This document shows positions 6,447 through 42,151 of a DNA stretch of 42,151 nucleotides, in pieces. This DNA is from Atopobium deltae (GTDB lineage: Bacteria > Actinomycetota > Coriobacteriia > Coriobacteriales > Atopobiaceae): the NCBI RefSeq assembly GCF_001552785.1, contig NZ_KQ959491.1, forward strand, positions 1-42,151. Reading direction: 5' to 3'. A program made the translations under genes and the position numbers. A model generated the notes under the pieces. It was not told the origin of the DNA. It saw only the letters and a list, made by a program, of their open reading frames with translations, and made no database searches. How positions within the stretch are numbered: the stretch's first letter is position 1; every line of letters begins with the position of its first letter.

Positions 6447-7625
6447 CTACTTGCCAAGAAGATCCTCAACATCCATTGCAATCATGAGCTCTTCGTTGGT
6501 GGGCACCACAAGCACGGTAGCTGCAGAGTCATCCGTCGAAATAATGCGTGGCTCATCCGAGCGAACCTTGTTCTTCTCGACATCAATTTTAATACCAAGC
6601 CAGGCGAGCTCTTTGGCAACCTCTGCACGCGTCAGCTCAGAATTCTCGCCAATGCCAGCGGTAAAGACGATGGTGTCAAAGCCGTGCATCGACTGTGCCA
6701 TCTCGGCAATGAGCTGCGCGATGCGGTAATAAAACATCTTGAGCGTCATCTGGCAATGCTCGTTACCCTCGGAAGCTGCTTGCTCAATGTCGCGCGAGTC
6801 GCTCGAGATGTCCGACAGCGCGCGCAGACCCGACTGCTTGTTCATCATGGTGTCGATCTCGTCGATACTGTAGCCACCAACGCGATACAGATAAAAGACC
6901 GTCGCAGGGTCGATCGTGCCCGTACGCGTACCCATAATCAGACCATCGAGCGGGGTCAAGCCCATGGTAGTGTCCATGGATTTACCATCCTGAATGGCGC
7001 ACAGCGAGGCGCCTGAGCCAATGTGGCAGCTTATGAGTTTGTGGGTCTTCTCGCCCATGAGTTTGTGCGTGAGATACCAAATATAGCGGTGAGAAGTGCC
7101 ATGTGCACCGTACTTACGAATATGGTACTTGTCGACCACGTCACGCGGCAAAGCGTAACGGCTGGCCTTCTCGGGCATGTTGAAGTGGAAAGCAGTGTCG
7201 GGAACAATCACGTTACCGATGGAGGGGAACAAATCGCGGCAGATCTCGATAACGTCGGCCTCGGCGTAATTGTGCAGGGGCGCTAAGGGCGCAACCTCGC
7301 GCACTTTTTGCAGAGTGTCATCGGTGACGACCTCCGACTTGGAGAAGTACCAACCGCCCTGTACCACGCGGTGACCGATGCCTTCGATGCTGTTGATGTC
7401 AAAGCCAGCACCTTTAAGAATCTCAAAGACGTACTGGACGGCAACGCGGTGATTGGGAAGCTCCACGTCCATCTTGGACTTTTGACCGCGCTCTTCATGA
7501 CCGATAAAAGAGTCGTTAATACCAATGCGCTCGCAATTACCCTTTGCCTTCACCTCATGCGTAGTGGTGTCCAGCAACTGATATTTTAAAGATGAACTGC
7601 CAGCATTGATAACAAGAACGTTCAT
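6447..7625 (-). CDS. ackA: Acetate kinase
   Basis: 392 residues, close to the usual ~400. It interconverts acetate + ATP and acetyl phosphate + ADP, the last ATP-yielding step of acetate fermentation in the cytoplasm. Visible signatures are the N-terminal NAGSSSLKYQ (residues 7-16), GAHGTSH, the GSGASLCA phosphate-binding stretch, MGTRTGTIDP and the C-terminal FTAGIGENS. AAAAAGGAG lies 5 nt before the ATG. The usual partner pta is not adjacent, so phosphotransacetylase must be encoded elsewhere. A copy of the dispersed motif (7044-7053) is embedded in sense orientation, giving GEKTHK. Identification is certain. Confidence 0.98.
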   Translation of the reverse strand: MNVLVINAGSSSLKYQLLDTTTHEVKAKGNCERIGINDSFIGHEERGQKSKMDVELPNHRVAVQYVFEILKGAGFDINSIEGIGHRVVQGGWYFSKSEVVTDDTLQKVREVAPLAPLHNYAEADVIEICRDLFPSIGNVIVPDTAFHFNMPEKASRYALPRDVVDKYHIRKYGAHGTSHRYIWYLTHKLMGEKTHKLISCHIGSGASLCAIQDGKSMDTTMGLTPLDGLIMGTRTGTIDPATVFYLYRVGGYSIDEIDTMMNKQSGLRALSDISSDSRDIEQAASEGNEHCQMTLKMFYYRIAQLIAEMAQSMHGFDTIVFTAGIGENSELTRAEVAKELAWLGIKIDVEKNKVRSDEPRIISTDDSAATVLVVPTNEELMIAMDVEDLLGK

Positions 7626-8484: not shown

Positions 8485-9906
8485 TTAACGTTTGCTTGCC
8501 GAGCGGTCGATCTTCTCGGCAGAAGCAGTCTTATCGGCTTTATCGGCTTGCTCGGCAGAAGTGACCCGCGTCTGCAGCGAGCCGTCACGCAGCGTAATGT
8601 TCACAACATCGCCTGGGGTAACGTCGCTTGTCTTTTTTATCACGTGCCCTCCTGCATTGCGCACGATCGCATACCCACGCGAAAGCACGGCAAACGGCGA
8701 CAAGGCCTCGAGGGATGCCGCATTTTTGTCGATGCGCATCACGTAGGGGTGCAACATCTTGGAACCGCAAATATGCAGACGATGCGAAAGGGTTTGCGCC
8801 TGTGTCTTGTAGCGCTCCACAAAGCGAGGAAGGCTGTCAACGAGGCGCTGCTCAGTTTGCAGCAGCGCGGAGGTGTAATCGTCCAGAATAGCAGTGGGGT
8901 CTGTAAGGCAGCGGCGCTGCGCCAAAGCCTCAAGACGGCTCTTCTCGACAGCTAGGCGGTTTTGCAATGCGAGACGCGTGCGAGAGCTGGCTGTTTCGAG
9001 CTCTGTTTTGTGCTGGCGCACCAACGTTCCCATCACGCGGCCCAGACGCTCTTGACGGTTGTTGACCGCAACAACAATTTCGCTGATCGCGGGGGCAACG
9101 CTTTCGGCAGCAGCAGTGGGCGTTGAGGTACGCCTATCGGCGACCATATCGCAAATCGTGACGTCGGGCTCGTGGCCGATACCCGTTACCACAGGCACAG
9201 GACAGGCCGCCACCGCGCGGGCGAGCGCCTCGTCGTTAAAGCACATAAGATCCTCGTACGATCCACCGCCTCGCACGAGCAAAATGCAATCGGGCTGGGC
9301 AGTAGCAGCAATATCAAGCGCGCGCATAATAGTAGCGGCAGCGGTTGTGCCCTGCACTGAGCAACCTGCGCAGAGCAGCGAAACCAACGGATTACGACGC
9401 AGCAGGGTTCGACGCACGTCTTCAATGACGCTACCCGACAAAGAAGTCACGACTGCAACGCGGGTACAAAACGCAGGAATATGGCGCTTTTTAGCGGGAT
9501 CCATCAGGCCTTCGTTTTCGAGCTTTTTGGCCAGAGCTGCAACCTGCTGGCGCAGCAAGCCCTCGCCTGCTATCGATAAACTCTTGGCCTTGAAACTTAA
9601 TTTTCCTGAAGCGGGATAAATATCAAAGGTGCCCGTCATTTGAATTTTGAGACCATCAGCAAGCTGCACACCACTTGCTTGATAAAGGCTCTTCCAAACA
9701 ATGACCTCCATCGCGGCAGTTTCATCTTTAATTTGAAAATAGCAGTGGCCACTCCTGCTGTTGGGCCCTCTAAAACCCGAGACCTCTCCTACCACCGTAA
9801 AGGCAGGAATCGTTTTTGCAGCCGCATTGATAAGCTTGATCGCGTCGGATACCGATAAGGGCTTCTCTTCGGCATCCCATGCAACGGTTTGGTAATTCTC
9901 TTGCAT
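8485..9906 (-). CDS. xseA: Exodeoxyribonuclease VII large subunit
   Basis: 473 residues, slightly longer than the ~450 norm. An N-terminal OB fold (about 15-110) is followed by the catalytic domain with VRGGGSYEDL and CFNDEALARAV, GIGHEPD and DRRTSTPTAAAE (about 205-275). A long coiled coil (about 280-400) and a C-terminal segment with 'VLSRGYAIV' complete it. This is the nuclease subunit for processive ssDNA digestion in mismatch and recombinational repair. AAGGAAG lies 4 nt before the ATG. The last ~25 residues are an Ala/Asp/Lys-rich tail built from motif-like DNA (CTCGGCAGAAG, GATCTTCTCGGC), including a dispersed-motif copy at 8509-8518. The tail looks like expanded linker sequence rather than domain. 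Confidence 0.97.
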   Translation of the reverse strand: MQENYQTVAWDAEEKPLSVSDAIKLINAAAKTIPAFTVVGEVSGFRGPNSRSGHCYFQIKDETAAMEVIVWKSLYQASGVQLADGLKIQMTGTFDIYPASGKLSFKAKSLSIAGEGLLRQQVAALAKKLENEGLMDPAKKRHIPAFCTRVAVVTSLSGSVIEDVRRTLLRRNPLVSLLCAGCSVQGTTAAATIMRALDIAATAQPDCILLVRGGGSYEDLMCFNDEALARAVAACPVPVVTGIGHEPDVTICDMVADRRTSTPTAAAESVAPAISEIVVAVNNRQERLGRVMGTLVRQHKTELETASSRTRLALQNRLAVEKSRLEALAQRRCLTDPTAILDDYTSALLQTEQRLVDSLPRFVERYKTQAQTLSHRLHICGSKMLHPYVMRIDKNAASLEALSPFAVLSRGYAIVRNAGGHVIKKTSDVTPGDVVNITLRDGSLQTRVTSAEQADKADKTASAEKIDRSASKR

Positions 9907-9980
9907 GCATCTTCCTTATCTCTTACGTACGCGGGCATGTGCAAGCGCTTGCGGGCAGGCGCTGGCACTAGGTGCCAGCA

Positions 9981-10688
9981 TCAGTCGTCAGAACGACTTT
10001 TTAAAAGATACAACAACTCTAAGACAGAAATAAGTGCAGCAGCCACATAAGTCAAAGCGGCGGCAATCAGTACCTTGCGCGCACCCTTTGCTACCAGCGG
10101 ACTTAAACCAGACGAAGACGAGCGAATGTAGTTGTACGCACGACGTGAAGCATTAAATTCAACAGGAAGGGTCACAACCTGAAACACCACAATGGCCACA
10201 TAGAGCATGATGGCAAGGTTCACCAGACCTGCGATGCCCATAAACAAACCCGCCATCAGAATAAATACCCAGGCAGACGAAACAAATTGCACAGTAGGAA
10301 CAAGTGCACTACGAAGCTTCAACGGCAGATAACTCTTGGCGTGCTGAATCGCGTGACCCGCCTCGTGACAAGCCACCGCAATCGACGCCACCGAACCGCC
10401 GCGCAAATTATGCTCCGACAGATTGAGTACGCGTGTCCGCGGATCATAGTTATCGGTAAGCTCACCTGCGATGCCCTGAATATCGACACCATATACACCC
10501 TGCGAATCCAACATACGCTGAGCGATCTGCGCACCTGTATGCGGCGTCTTTGCATCAACCGCGCTCCAACGCTTATAAGTTTTACTGATATACAACTGCG
10601 CCGATAAGCCCAGCACCATCGAGACAATTATCAGCGCCCAGTACCAAAGACCGCCACCGTAAAAACTTCCATAAAAAAGGCCGTTCAT
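9981..10688 (-). CDS. YugP-type membrane zinc metallopeptidase
   Basis: 235 residues. A hydrophobic N-terminus (about 14-33) precedes a soluble segment with the zinc site H108-E109-A-G-H112, then three or more hydrophobic stretches (about 127-165 and 205-230). This order matches the YugP / Zn_peptidase_2 family, predicted membrane-bound neutral zinc proteases with no well-defined substrate. The conserved 'LSEHNLRGGSVASIAVACHE' region (about 90-109) leads into the metal site. It sits between xseA and rnd, all leftward, possibly one transcription unit. AAGGATG precedes the ATG by 7 nt. Confidence 0.9.
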   Translation of the reverse strand: MNGLFYGSFYGGGLWYWALIIVSMVLGLSAQLYISKTYKRWSAVDAKTPHTGAQIAQRMLDSQGVYGVDIQGIAGELTDNYDPRTRVLNLSEHNLRGGSVASIAVACHEAGHAIQHAKSYLPLKLRSALVPTVQFVSSAWVFILMAGLFMGIAGLVNLAIMLYVAIVVFQVVTLPVEFNASRRAYNYIRSSSSGLSPLVAKGARKVLIAAALTYVAAALISVLELLYLLKSRSDD

Positions 10689-39933: not shown

Positions 39934-40113
39934 CTATAGGACAAAAAGTGTGTATAGCAAATATCGAAAATAAAAAGCGAGTAGTTTGTGATTAAAACTA
40001 CTCGCTGACCTGTGCAAATGGTGGGCGATGAGGGATTTGAACCCACGGTCTCTTCCGTGGTCGCCTGTGTTGTGGTTGCCTGTGTTGCAGTTGCCTGTGG
40101 TCATTTCTTCCAT
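39934..40113 (-). CDS. Possible 59-residue protein starting with NTGxx repeats, running into the tRNA remnant
   Basis: ATG 40113 has AAAGGAAG 5 nt upstream. The first ~20 residues contain a repeating Asn-Thr-Gly-x-x pattern (TTGNC, NTGNH, NTGDH). The frame then passes through the tRNA 3' remnant and its terminator and stops at 39934, so its second half is not real protein sequence. It may be the cut-off start of a longer Asn-Thr-Gly repeat gene joined to the tRNA by integration, or simply chance reading of 15-bp DNA repeats. Low confidence as a gene. Confidence 0.25.
   Translation of the reverse strand: MEEMTTGNCNTGNHNTGDHGRDRGFKSLIAHHLHRSASSFNHKLLAFYFRYLLYTLFVL
39972..40005 (-). terminator. 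Intrinsic terminator just beyond the tRNA 3' remnant
   Basis: Minus strand: perfect 11-bp stem GCGAGTAGTTT / AAACTACTCGC, 7-nt loop, then TTTTTATTTT. It starts about 14 nt after the CCA of the remnant, and is presumably the original tRNA terminator left on the chromosome side. Confidence 0.85.
40019..40058 (-). other. tRNA 3'-end remnant: likely attachment site of an integrated element
   Basis: On the minus strand it reads as the 3' part of a tRNA: ACGGAAG (anticodon-stem-like), AGACC, T arm GTGGG-TTCAAAT-CCCTC, acceptor ATCGCCC, A73 and CCA (40019-40021). No 5' half is present to the right. The acceptor and anticodon-stem fragments recall actinobacterial tRNA-Val (GAC), from memory. One T-stem mismatch suggests that exact identity with the source tRNA may stop at about 40044. 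The orientation predicts that the element lies to the right and ends at an intact tRNA gene outside the window. Confidence 0.7.
40061..40105. repeat. Three period-15 direct repeats inside the element end
   Basis: TCGCCTGTGTTGTGG, TTGCCTGTGTTGCAG and TTGCCTGTGGTCATT in tandem, immediately inside the tRNA remnant. They could be arm-type integrase sites or part of an Asn-Thr-Gly repeat reading frame on the minus strand. Confidence 0.7.
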
Positions 40114-40266
40114 AACACTTCCTTTCAAAGTAATTACTTTTGTCATTACCTGTACGTTTCTTACCATTCGAGAAACGCTAATCGCTATACAGTTTTCAAG
40201 GTACATATGAATAAGCGCTTATAGCGTTATTCGGTGCTGCTCGGTCGTGCAGAGGACTATAGGTTT

Positions 40267-40276
40267 AACTATAGTT
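40267..40276. promoter_or_regulatory. Palindrome AACTATAGTT at the end of the Xre gene
   Basis: Perfect 10-bp palindrome overlapping the stop codon of the Xre gene. It shares the half-site AACTATA with the divergent-promoter operator at 40514-40535, about 250 bp away. Confidence 0.4.
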
Positions 40277-40484
40277 TCTCATCAAAAAAAATTTGAGTCA
40301 CCGACACATTGAATAGCTGCGCAAGCCTTCGGGCATCCTCGATAGTAAGTAATTCGGGGTTCTTTTCAAGCTTGATATATGTAGGTGTTGAGACTCCTAA
40401 TATGCCAGCTACCTGCTCTTGTGTGAACCGAGCTATTTTTCTGATATCTCTTAACTTTAGAGATCGAGTGGTTTCAGTTACCAT
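40269..40484 (-). CDS. Small Xre/Cro-type HTH regulator
   Basis: 71 residues from ATG 40484; AAGGAGG lies 8-9 nt upstream, so the longer in-frame start is rejected. A single Cro/C1-type helix-turn-helix covers about residues 10-65 ('RKIARFTQEQVAGILGVSTP' then 'YIKLEKNPELLTIEDARRLA'). Size and divergent position opposite the S24 repressor gene match a Cro-like partner in a lysis/lysogeny-type or ICE switch. It could alternatively be the element's antitoxin-like regulator. Transcribed leftward, toward the attachment site. Confidence 0.85.
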   Translation of the reverse strand: MVTETTRSLKLRDIRKIARFTQEQVAGILGVSTPTYIKLEKNPELLTIEDARRLAQLFNVSVTQIFFDEKL

Positions 40485-40513
40485 CGGTAAAGTCCTCCTT
40501 TCGTCTTGATTAC

Positions 40514-40535
40514 AACTATAATTAAATTTATAGTT
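40514..40535. promoter_or_regulatory. Palindromic operator in the divergent regulator promoter region
   Basis: AACTATAA-N6-TTATAGTT, a perfect 22-bp dyad midway between the divergent Xre and S24 genes. Confidence 0.65.
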
Positions 40536-40545
40536 TTTGTAAAGC

Positions 40546-40575
40546 AAATTTTAGTAAAATAAAAATAAATTTTAG
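40546..40575 (+). promoter_or_regulatory. Direct repeat AAATTTTAG before the S24 gene
   Basis: AAATTTTAG at 40546-40554 and 40567-40575, starts 21 bp apart (two helical turns), ending 24 nt before the repressor start. Possible second operator type. Confidence 0.4.
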
Positions 40576-40599: not shown

Positions 40600-41247
40600 A
40601 TGAGCATCGCTGACAATATTCGTGCCTTACGTATCAAGAACAACTTAACGCAAGAAGAATTCGGGGAGATTGCTGGCGTTTCCTCGATGGCGGTGTCTCA
40701 ATGGGAAAACAGCAGGGCTGTCCCTCGAATGGGTGCTGTGCAAAAAATCTCTGATTATTTTGGCATTTCAAAAGGCAGCATCATTGAAGATAACGAGATG
40801 GATGCATTTATCCGCCCTAAAAATGCTCACCCAATCGTAGGCTCTAAGGCGACGCTCCCTCTTCGGGTACTTGGTAAAGTCCACGCAGGCACTATGACGG
40901 ACGAAGAAGTCATAACAGACGAGATCCAAGTCCCCGAAAAGGTAGCCTTGTCTCATAAGCACGCATTTGTTCTTGAGGTAGAAGGCGACTGTATGGATAG
41001 AGTTATCCCTGACGGCTCACATGTTGTGGTAGATCCATATGCAGAGCCGCATACAGGCTCTATAGTGGTCGTTGAAGATGAAAACTACTGTTCTATCATG
41101 CGCCGCTATTATCGTGGCTCACAGTCGCTTATGTTGAGTCCCGATAGCTTTAATGAGGCACACCAAGATGTGATTTACAAAGACGATGAGCCAATAAAGC
41201 TTGTTGGCACGGTTGTATGGTGGCAAGCTGCCGAGATGATGGAGTAA
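40600..41247 (+). CDS. CI-like repressor: HTH plus S24 domain with altered catalytic dyad
   Basis: 215 residues from ATG 40600; GAGGTG lies 4 nt upstream (the in-frame TTG at 40588 is less likely). Xre helix-turn-helix about 4-60, then an S24/LexA-type C-terminal domain (about 85-205). The canonical GDSM serine is Cys131 (GDCMDRVIPDG), and the usual catalytic Lys region reads SIMRRYY, without lysine. An Ala96-Gly97 dipeptide sits where LexA/CI are cleaved. RecA-stimulated self-cleavage is therefore doubtful. It presumably represses the element, binding the AACTATAA dyads. Confidence 0.9.
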   Translation: MSIADNIRALRIKNNLTQEEFGEIAGVSSMAVSQWENSRAVPRMGAVQKISDYFGISKGSIIEDNEMDAFIRPKNAHPIVGSKATLPLRVLGKVHAGTMTDEEVITDEIQVPEKVALSHKHAFVLEVEGDCMDRVIPDGSHVVVDPYAEPHTGSIVVVEDENYCSIMRRYYRGSQSLMLSPDSFNEAHQDVIYKDDEPIKLVGTVVWWQAAEMME

Positions 41248-41319: not shown

Positions 41320-42151
41320 GTGAATAAAATAAATCACGTTCTTACCGAGGAAGAAAAGAACACTATCGAGAGGATGCTCGATAAGTCTCAAGAAGCGTTC
41401 ATTATGGCAATCGAGATTTATAACCGTCCCTCACTTAAGTATAGGGTCGAAGGGTTTTCATTCTTTATTTGCAATGCATGGGAACTTATGGCTAAAGCTC
41501 AGGTTATTAAAACTTTGGGCTACAAAAAGCTAAGCTATACCAATAAAAACGGAGAACAGAGAACCATTACTCTTAAAAAAGCACTAGCGTTAACAATTAC
41601 TAATAAAAAATCACTCATGGTTAAAAACCTAAGCGATGTCATTACCCTAAGAAATACAAGTACTCATTTTATTGTGGAAGAGGATAACCAGATTTATTTA
41701 GGTTTATTCCAATCTTGTATAACGAATTACGAACGATATATGAGCATGTGGCATAGGCGTAGAATTGCAGATATTTTCCCCACTAATTATCTAACTTTAT
41801 GTATTAACGCCTCAATATATGGTGTAAAAAATATTACTGCTCGATATCCTGACGATGTAGCACTTGCTTTAATGAGCAGAAAAGAGACCATCAGTAATAA
41901 CGAAGAGCACTATGCAAACAAGGGCTACAGTTGCATAGTACAACAGGAGCTTGTGTTATCAAAGAAAACTAAAGGCACGTCGAAAAAAGTCGCGTTTGTT
42001 CCTTCAGAACAAGCTGACGAGAATGTTACTGTACTTAAAGAGTATATCGATCCTAAAAATAGCCATCCATACTCCACCACACAATGCATAGTGGAAATAA
42101 ACAAAAGACTAAGAAAAAATAATGTAAAAATATATGTAAACAATGCAGAAA
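41320..42151 (+). CDS. DUF3644-family HEPN-like protein (runs off the window)
   Basis: GTG start at 41320 with AGGAG 5 nt upstream. 277 codons are present and remain open to the edge. The N-terminus has the DUF3644 pattern as I remember it: 'LTEEEKNTIERMLDKSQEAF', 'YNRPSLKYRVEGFSFFICNA' and 'WELMAKA' (54-60), then L-R111-N-T-S-T-H116. R111-x4-H116 is the Rx4-6H motif of HEPN ribonucleases. The C-terminal part seen (about 240-277) is a basic segment that could bind nucleic acid. Many HEPN proteins are RNases in toxin-antitoxin, abortive-infection and CRISPR systems. It follows the repressor by about 70 nt in AT-rich DNA. A defence role is inference. Confidence 0.8.
   Translation, partial: MNKINHVLTEEEKNTIERMLDKSQEAFIMAIEIYNRPSLKYRVEGFSFFICNAWELMAKAQVIKTLGYKKLSYTNKNGEQRTITLKKALALTITNKKSLMVKNLSDVITLRNTSTHFIVEEDNQIYLGLFQSCITNYERYMSMWHRRRIADIFPTNYLTLCINASIYGVKNITARYPDDVALALMSRKETISNNEEHYANKGYSCIVQQELVLSKKTKGTSKKVAFVPSEQADENVTVLKEYIDPKNSHPYSTTQCIVEINKRLRKNNVKIYVNNAE

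Follow-up and report, generated by a model that had tools for sequence, protein, structure and literature searches.

A truncated DUF3644 HEPN gene on an integrated element of Atopobium deltae and a predicted antisense RNA partner of its family

Introduction

The DUF3644 family was assigned to the HEPN superfamily in 2013, in a description that also found its genes together with restriction-modification (R-M) genes (PMC3710099), and it is held by PADLOC as PDC-S19, a phage-defence candidate family. The present work concerns a member of this family at the right-hand end of a stretch of 42,151 nucleotides from Atopobium deltae (assembly GCF_001552785.1, contig NZ_KQ959491.1; the whole stretch is called the window below). 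In relatives of the window gene a structured RNA of ~95 nucleotides (nt) was found against the 3′ end of the gene, on the opposite strand. This predicted partner RNA of the DUF3644 clade is new here: none was described for PDC-S19/DUF3644 in the open PMC literature, where one paper named DUF3644 and none PDC-S19. The clade is probably a prophage HEPN toxin held off by the RNA, that is, a type III-like toxin-antitoxin or abortive-infection (Abi) module that is evaded by means of phage decoy RNAs; the inhibition by the RNA and the phage defence are the parts of this proposal that we infer.

PDC-S19 (EC042_2821-DUF3644; PMC3710099) is the same family as the window gene, with a DUF3644 HEPN domain followed by PF18740 and the same standing as a phage-defence candidate. 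The partner RNA is an addition to it, and PF18740, although named restriction endonuclease (REase)-like in Pfam, lacks conserved catalytic acids and gives a winged-helix-like model.

A phage-encoded HEPN ribonuclease (RNase) with an adjacent structured RNA is likewise found in AbiF-RCd22 (PMC12373285; Rfam RF03085), in which the RNA binds and neutralises the prophage HEPN toxin AbiF; HEPN RNases with RNA partners were proposed in the same work as the origin of Cas13. The protein family is a different one, however, as Abi_2 (PF07751) was not matched by 77 DUF3644 members, and the RNA differs as well, lying upstream and in sense at AbiF but downstream and antisense at DUF3644. The arrangement proposed here, an RNase toxin with an RNA antitoxin and a phage RNA that mimics the antitoxin, is known from ToxIN and phage phiTE, which evades ToxIN by expressing the antitoxin-like RNA pseudo-ToxI (PMC3475682). 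The repeats of the ToxI array precede the toxin on a shared transcript, whereas the DUF3644 RNA is single, non-repeated, downstream and on the other strand. Judged as a type III toxin-antitoxin system, the family shows a structured RNA beside the RNase gene in 96 of 96 relatives (the window contig ends before the RNA); a tandem-repeat antitoxin RNA upstream in the toxin transcript was not found in the DUF3644 relatives. To our knowledge, the fold of ToxN is not HEPN.

In Tha-1/Ith-1 of Staphylococcus phage 80alpha (PMC11087260) a HEPN Rx4H effector likewise occupies the repressor-integrase slot of a temperate phage, and an antisense gene overlaps the 3′ end of the effector gene. Tha has a protein as its antisense partner and the DUF3644 relatives have a structured RNA; the HEPN domain is C-terminal in Tha but N-terminal in the DUF3644 protein. 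Tha is triggered by a tail protein, and phage Phi7206 carries a Tha inhibitor (the orphan Ith-2) without Tha (PMC11087260). Membership of the window family in Tha was considered and rejected, as hhalign gave a probability of 1.1% to Tha-1, though the Rx4H motifs align.

Results

Occurrence of the RNA

A conserved DNA element that begins at the DUF3644 stop codon surfaced during the search for an Ith-like antisense inhibitor. No conserved antisense protein was found in the relatives; a 26-member cluster of antisense frames consisted of translations of the conserved RNA. The RNA was present in 96 of 96 non-redundant clade loci with downstream sequence. The non-redundant members numbered 103, including two whose contig ends 3 nt past the gene and five that are divergent (L079, L080, L082, L083 and L084); the RNA is absent from all five, a fuzzy match in L080 being spurious. 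Similarity between loci was 0.76 in the RNA region and 0.39 in the following 100 nt. A covariance model recovered the RNA at the 3′ end of held-out homologues (E below 1e-18) and gave no match in 80alpha or in the divergent members. No family of Rfam 15 matched the RNA, RF03085 included. In a search of 396 genomes of the phylum, run with the stricter filters of Infernal, the RNA was found in three, all among the 12 genomes with DUF3644; one of the four RNA places in these genomes lies ~320 nt from a contig end, which fits a gene whose parts lie on two contigs.

The window gene groups with L003, L078 and L118 in a 104-member tree (support 0.93); L078 and L118 are from Coriobacteria-related sources. 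Because all three of these nearest relatives have the RNA, it should lie just past 42151 in the window element, where it is predicted rather than seen. The initial annotation had placed any partners past the window edge. The relatives do show a partner at that place, in the form of an antisense structured RNA and not of a protein.

Structure and transcription signals of the RNA

An alignment of 88 RNA copies was used for the structure. RNAalifold gave 23 pairs, 15 of them with double-sided changes; the structure refined by hand has 26 pairs, with 93.3% of cells paired and 17 of the 26 pairs compensated. The covariation score was 0.342, as against 0.171 (standard deviation 0.006) for shuffled and ≤0.097 for slid alignments. 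The sequence of the outer stem P1 varies freely while its pairing is kept at 98.6%; the other helices are the internal P2, the GAAU-type hairpin P3 and the variable hairpin P4. The loops are conserved except for variation confined to the P4 stem, and no guide-like variable segment was seen. The count of 328 G-U cells to 20 A-C cells assigns the structure to the opposite strand from the gene, where 93% of cells are paired as against 80% on the gene strand. On these comparisons the RNA structure is supported computationally and under selection.

A sigma70-like promoter was found at a fixed place on the reverse strand (mean 10.3 of 12 matches, n = 94; 8.2 in shuffled sequence and 8.0 in the gene-strand control), and a T-run of at least five follows P1 in 80 of 88 copies. 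Since the terminal lysine codons of DUF3644, read in reverse, form the U-tract of the RNA, the gene tail and the RNA terminator use the same bases. The RNA appears to be transcribed independently, from the predicted promoter and terminator.

A 17-nt stretch of the RNA core (TGGGTTCCCGAATGGGA; for example, L013, 6957–7047, minus strand) resembles 23S ribosomal RNA (rRNA; TGGATTTCCGAATGGGA). Mimicry of rRNA by the core is not claimed, as the likeness falls at the 95th percentile of shuffles; it hints, weakly, at possible mimicry of a substrate.

RNA copies away from DUF3644

From 2.9 million viral contigs, 122 RNA sites were recovered in two pattern scans, 83 at a DUF3644 end and 39 elsewhere. 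All 39 sites of the latter kind match the covariance model; in 37 of them (32 once near-duplicates were removed) the gene side is covered for 200 nt or more, and no DUF3644 was found elsewhere in the fetched stretches around orphan RNAs. Some orphan copies are complete with promoter and terminator. Others consist of the P2-P3-P4 core only and stand beside tRNAs of the same strand (L214, L252, L265 and L257). The core stands alone between tRNA-Lys and tRNA-Arg in Corynebacterium phage Darwin (28.6 bits), and both DUF3644 and the full RNA are present in Poushou, Colleen and further phages that share Darwin's host species; in Eggerthella phage LE2-3 a core copy lies downstream of tRNAs (33.4 bits). 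A phage tRNA by the core is called with a four-base anticodon (cccc) in three of these loci (L214, 1776–1851; L252, 3817–3892; L265, 3170–3245) and is possibly a frameshift-type tRNA.

Copies were also seen behind other genes. The RNA lies directly behind an Abi_2 gene in L315 (gene 9540–10544, RNA 10505–10627) and behind a NYN-domain gene in L305 (gene 6456–7205, RNA 7209–7329), as though another toxin gene had taken over the slot and left the RNA in place. In Staphylococcus phage StB20-like a copy (L097, 4120–4243) follows right after a PGA_cap gene, and a second copy is found at the phage's own DUF3644 gene; a copy in Staphylococcus phage S-CoN_Ph18 (L323, 3159–3282) probably has the same placement. 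A 24-nt similarity of Phi11/80alpha to the RNA is not claimed (model 13.8 bits, E 0.66).

The window gene and its protein

The window is the entire contig C9, so nothing lies to the right of 42151 in the assembly. No stop codon was found in frame from the GTG start, which is preceded by AGGAG, to the last base. Full-length homologues have ~320–340 amino acids (aa), so the window gene is short by about 50 codons and is predicted to be the first five-sixths of a DUF3644/PDC-S19 gene. The truncation by the contig end and the second, C-terminal domain (PF18740) go beyond the initial annotation. Features are listed in Table 1.

Table 1. Features at the right-hand end of the window.
Feature	Position	Strand	Basis and remarks
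12-bp perfect inverted repeat, terminator-like	39976–40006	−	Follows the tRNA remnant when read on the minus strand
26-nt copy of the tRNA-Val(TAC) 3′ end	40019–40044	−	Intact gene on contig C3; likely one attachment end
Divergent Cro-like helix-turn-helix (HTH) gene	40269–40547	−	HTH_3, E 2.5e-9
Lysogeny repressor, HTH_3 + Peptidase_S24	40600–41247	+	Profile match
DUF3644/HEPN gene (PDC-S19 family)	41320–42151	+	GTG start; cut by contig end after 277 codons
DUF3644 (HEPN) domain	41371–41895	+	Profile match, E 5.1e-47; HEPN fold in model of homologue L003
R111-N-T-S-T-H116, HEPN Rx4H active-site motif	41650–41667	+	Codons 111–116, AGA AAT ACA AGT ACT CAT
C-terminal EC042_2821 (PF18740) domain, start only	42049–42144	+	First 32 profile positions, then contig end

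The initial annotation had recognised a HEPN Rx4H motif within a DUF3644-like domain and had called for a profile search. Pfam DUF3644 (PF12358) matched the window protein over nearly the whole profile with E 1.3e-46 and 158.9 bits, the gathering score being 27.6; a genome-wide search gave 159.5 bits against the same cut-off, far beyond chance. All 140 full-length homologues have R111 and H116, N35 and Q131 are conserved alongside, and an N or D stands directly after the motif R in each of the 140, as is typical of the HEPN Rx4-6H motif. The HEPN assignment, against which a profile placement outside HEPN or a lack of conservation of R and H would have spoken, is thereby borne out. PADLOC PDC-S19 profiles match residues 13–274 of the truncated protein (E 4.6e-90).

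Searched with a profile of the 77 members, the best PDB matches were HepN toxins around the motif, and weak ones (E about 0.1); only DUF3644 and PF18740 were matched across these members. An AlphaFold2 model was built for the full-length homologue L003 (mean predicted local distance difference test score, pLDDT, 90.4). Comparison of its residues 1–150 by VIA-align gave 4nqf (Z 10.0), 2hsb (9.3), Csm6 (8.7), HEPN toxins (8.2–8.6) and AbiV (6.9), where Z alone is middling evidence for helical folds and the motif and the match list concur, the top rows being almost all HEPN proteins. Foldseek E-values by themselves were about 0.1 or worse for this model and for that of the C-terminal domain alone. 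A four-helix HEPN fold of the family is supported computationally, and the window gene product is most likely a prophage-borne HEPN endoribonuclease, an activity that we infer.

The C-terminal domain of a full-length relative, modelled alone, was compact and winged-helix-like, with weak MerR-type neighbours (best VIA Z 5.5). A second activity as REase, after the Pfam label, was rejected: residues of the D-(D/E)xK type are not conserved, and together with the weak winged-helix likeness this led to a nuclease role not being adopted. The domain may bind nucleic acid.

The integrated element

The GTG start follows the end of the repressor after 72 nt, in agreement with the placement of the gene just behind the repressor in the initial annotation, and the AT-rich integrated element described there was recovered as well: the GC content is 40.1% from 40019 to the end, 35.1% in the DUF3644 gene and 50.8% in the sequence to the left, with the drop at the tRNA-Val remnant. 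This remnant fits one end of an integrated element, and the region that starts from it is, as read from the sequence, the immunity end of such an element. The tRNA-Val gene on contig C3 is intact and continues on its 3′ side into murI-like sequence (judged by eye), without an element. Searches for integrase, PF18740 and the RNA model did not find the remainder of the element in the assembly; profile search gave nothing further for the second part of PF18740 in the genome, and none of the integrases elsewhere in it was assignable to the window element. An empty-site comparison across the family gave no answer, as synteny was missing.

Two near-identical 15-nt repeats in tandem (GTGGTCGCCTGTGTT; 40057–40086) lie immediately inward of the tRNA-derived end and are possibly integrase arm sites. 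A second prophage is found in the same genome on contig C24 (L194, 10589–14387), with an integrase adjoining tRNA-Ala(CGC) and, flanked by this integrase and an HTH gene, a gene for 365 aa in the same cargo slot; it has a short sequence in common with window 40150–40190. The C24 integrase was considered for the window element and rejected, since it belongs to this different prophage at tRNA-Ala.

Relatives and their neighbourhoods

A DUF3644 homologue was found in 45 phage records, from Streptococcus phages and satellites and from Staphylococcus, Listeria, Corynebacterium and Flavonifractor; the usual gene order in phages and satellites is repressor, DUF3644, integrase. Within 6 kb, 32 of 39 non-redundant viral loci have an integrase-like gene and 31 a repressor-like gene. 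The corresponding counts for 64 non-redundant genome loci are 17 and 19, and type I R-M genes are common there beside DUF3644. These two types of neighbourhood support the family as defence cargo of mobile elements and of R-M loci alike. The gene had been put forward as the best candidate for a new defence module. Its part as defence cargo is sustained by the PDC-S19 match, by the repressor-integrase slot in temperate phages and satellites and by the type I R-M neighbourhoods; its novelty is not, the family having been known as HEPN since 2013 (PMC3710099) and being PDC-S19 in PADLOC.

Discussion

A toxin with an RNA antitoxin is the reading that we prefer because the RNA structure is selected, tied to the gene, apparently self-transcribed and kept by phages that lack the toxin. 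The repressor-proximal DUF3644 gene would, to judge by its position, be on in the lysogen. A HEPN-mediated dimer would create the Rx4H RNase site, as the computed fold and the invariance of the motif suggest for this putative activity. The constitutive RNA would bind the protein, perhaps via the C-terminal winged-helix-like domain, and prevent its activity, as antitoxin RNAs do in type III systems. When a rival phage infects, the balance would be disturbed and the RNase released, so that the infection aborts; rivals with an RNA copy of their own, in some cases within tRNA arrays, would escape. Precedents for the proposed steps are RCd22 (neutralisation), phiTE (RNA escape) and Phi7206 (orphan inhibitor).

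Several observations weigh against this proposal. Single-sequence folding energies of the RNA are ordinary (z −1.3 to +1.4), so the case for its structure depends on covariation. The covariance model found no match in the window or in the rest of the Atopobium deltae assembly. Some RNA copies adjoin unrelated genes (PGA_cap, Abi_2, NYN), so the pairing with DUF3644 is not exclusive. Finally, an RNA that is antisense to the gene end could act on the mRNA instead. Under such cis-antisense (type I-like) control the RNA would either interfere with transcription or pair with the DUF3644 mRNA at its 3′ end, and the protein would be an ordinary HEPN Abi RNase. The RNA is indeed encoded antisense across the gene 3′ end and has its own promoter, and the model resembles the noncontiguous ith/tha arrangement of 80alpha, with an RNA in place of the protein; Tha, too, lies between repressor and integrase and has an inhibitor gene overlapping it in antisense. 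Cis-antisense pairing needs no folded structure, however, whereas one with compensatory changes is conserved, and action in trans is implied by the orphan copies of phages that lack the gene, among them P2-P3-P4 cores in tRNA arrays. We regard this explanation as unlikely.

The orphan copies, above all those in tRNA arrays, also fit poorly with an RNA that arms the defence, as it would if it were a required cofactor, guide or sensor of the HEPN protein after the manner of some reverse-transcriptase-defence non-coding RNAs or of Cas13 guides. The tight one-to-one association of RNA and gene within the clade would suit such a role, as would the HEPN-RNA partnerships that lead to Cas13 (PMC12373285), but the RNA has no variable guide-like segment, and we consider the role improbable. 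An element acting at the DNA level (a bidirectional terminator, an attachment or recombination site, or an operator) beside a standalone HEPN Abi gene is very improbable. The element does adjoin the integrase in phages and ends in a terminator-like stem and U-run, yet it is equally present at R-M and other integrase-free loci (an integrase lies within 6 kb in 17 of the 64 genome loci), its core copies among phage tRNAs lack the terminator stem, and the excess of G-U over A-C is explicable only by an RNA read from one strand.

For the toxin and RNA antitoxin in its widest form, a new class of RNA-controlled HEPN defence in which DUF3644 RNases of prophages and satellites in several phyla are neutralised by an antisense structured RNA and rivals carry trimmed decoys, some in tRNA arrays, we see a slightly better than even chance. 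Laboratory phages with both DUF3644 and the RNA are already known, among them Streptococcus satellites and Listeria and Corynebacterium phages. If the proposal is true, the pairing of HEPN with RNA is independent of AbiF and Cas13, and a second, unrelated HEPN family with a conserved RNA would mean that the arrangement arose more than once. PDC-S19 would then have a testable mechanism, and many phage RNAs would become candidate counter-defence elements.
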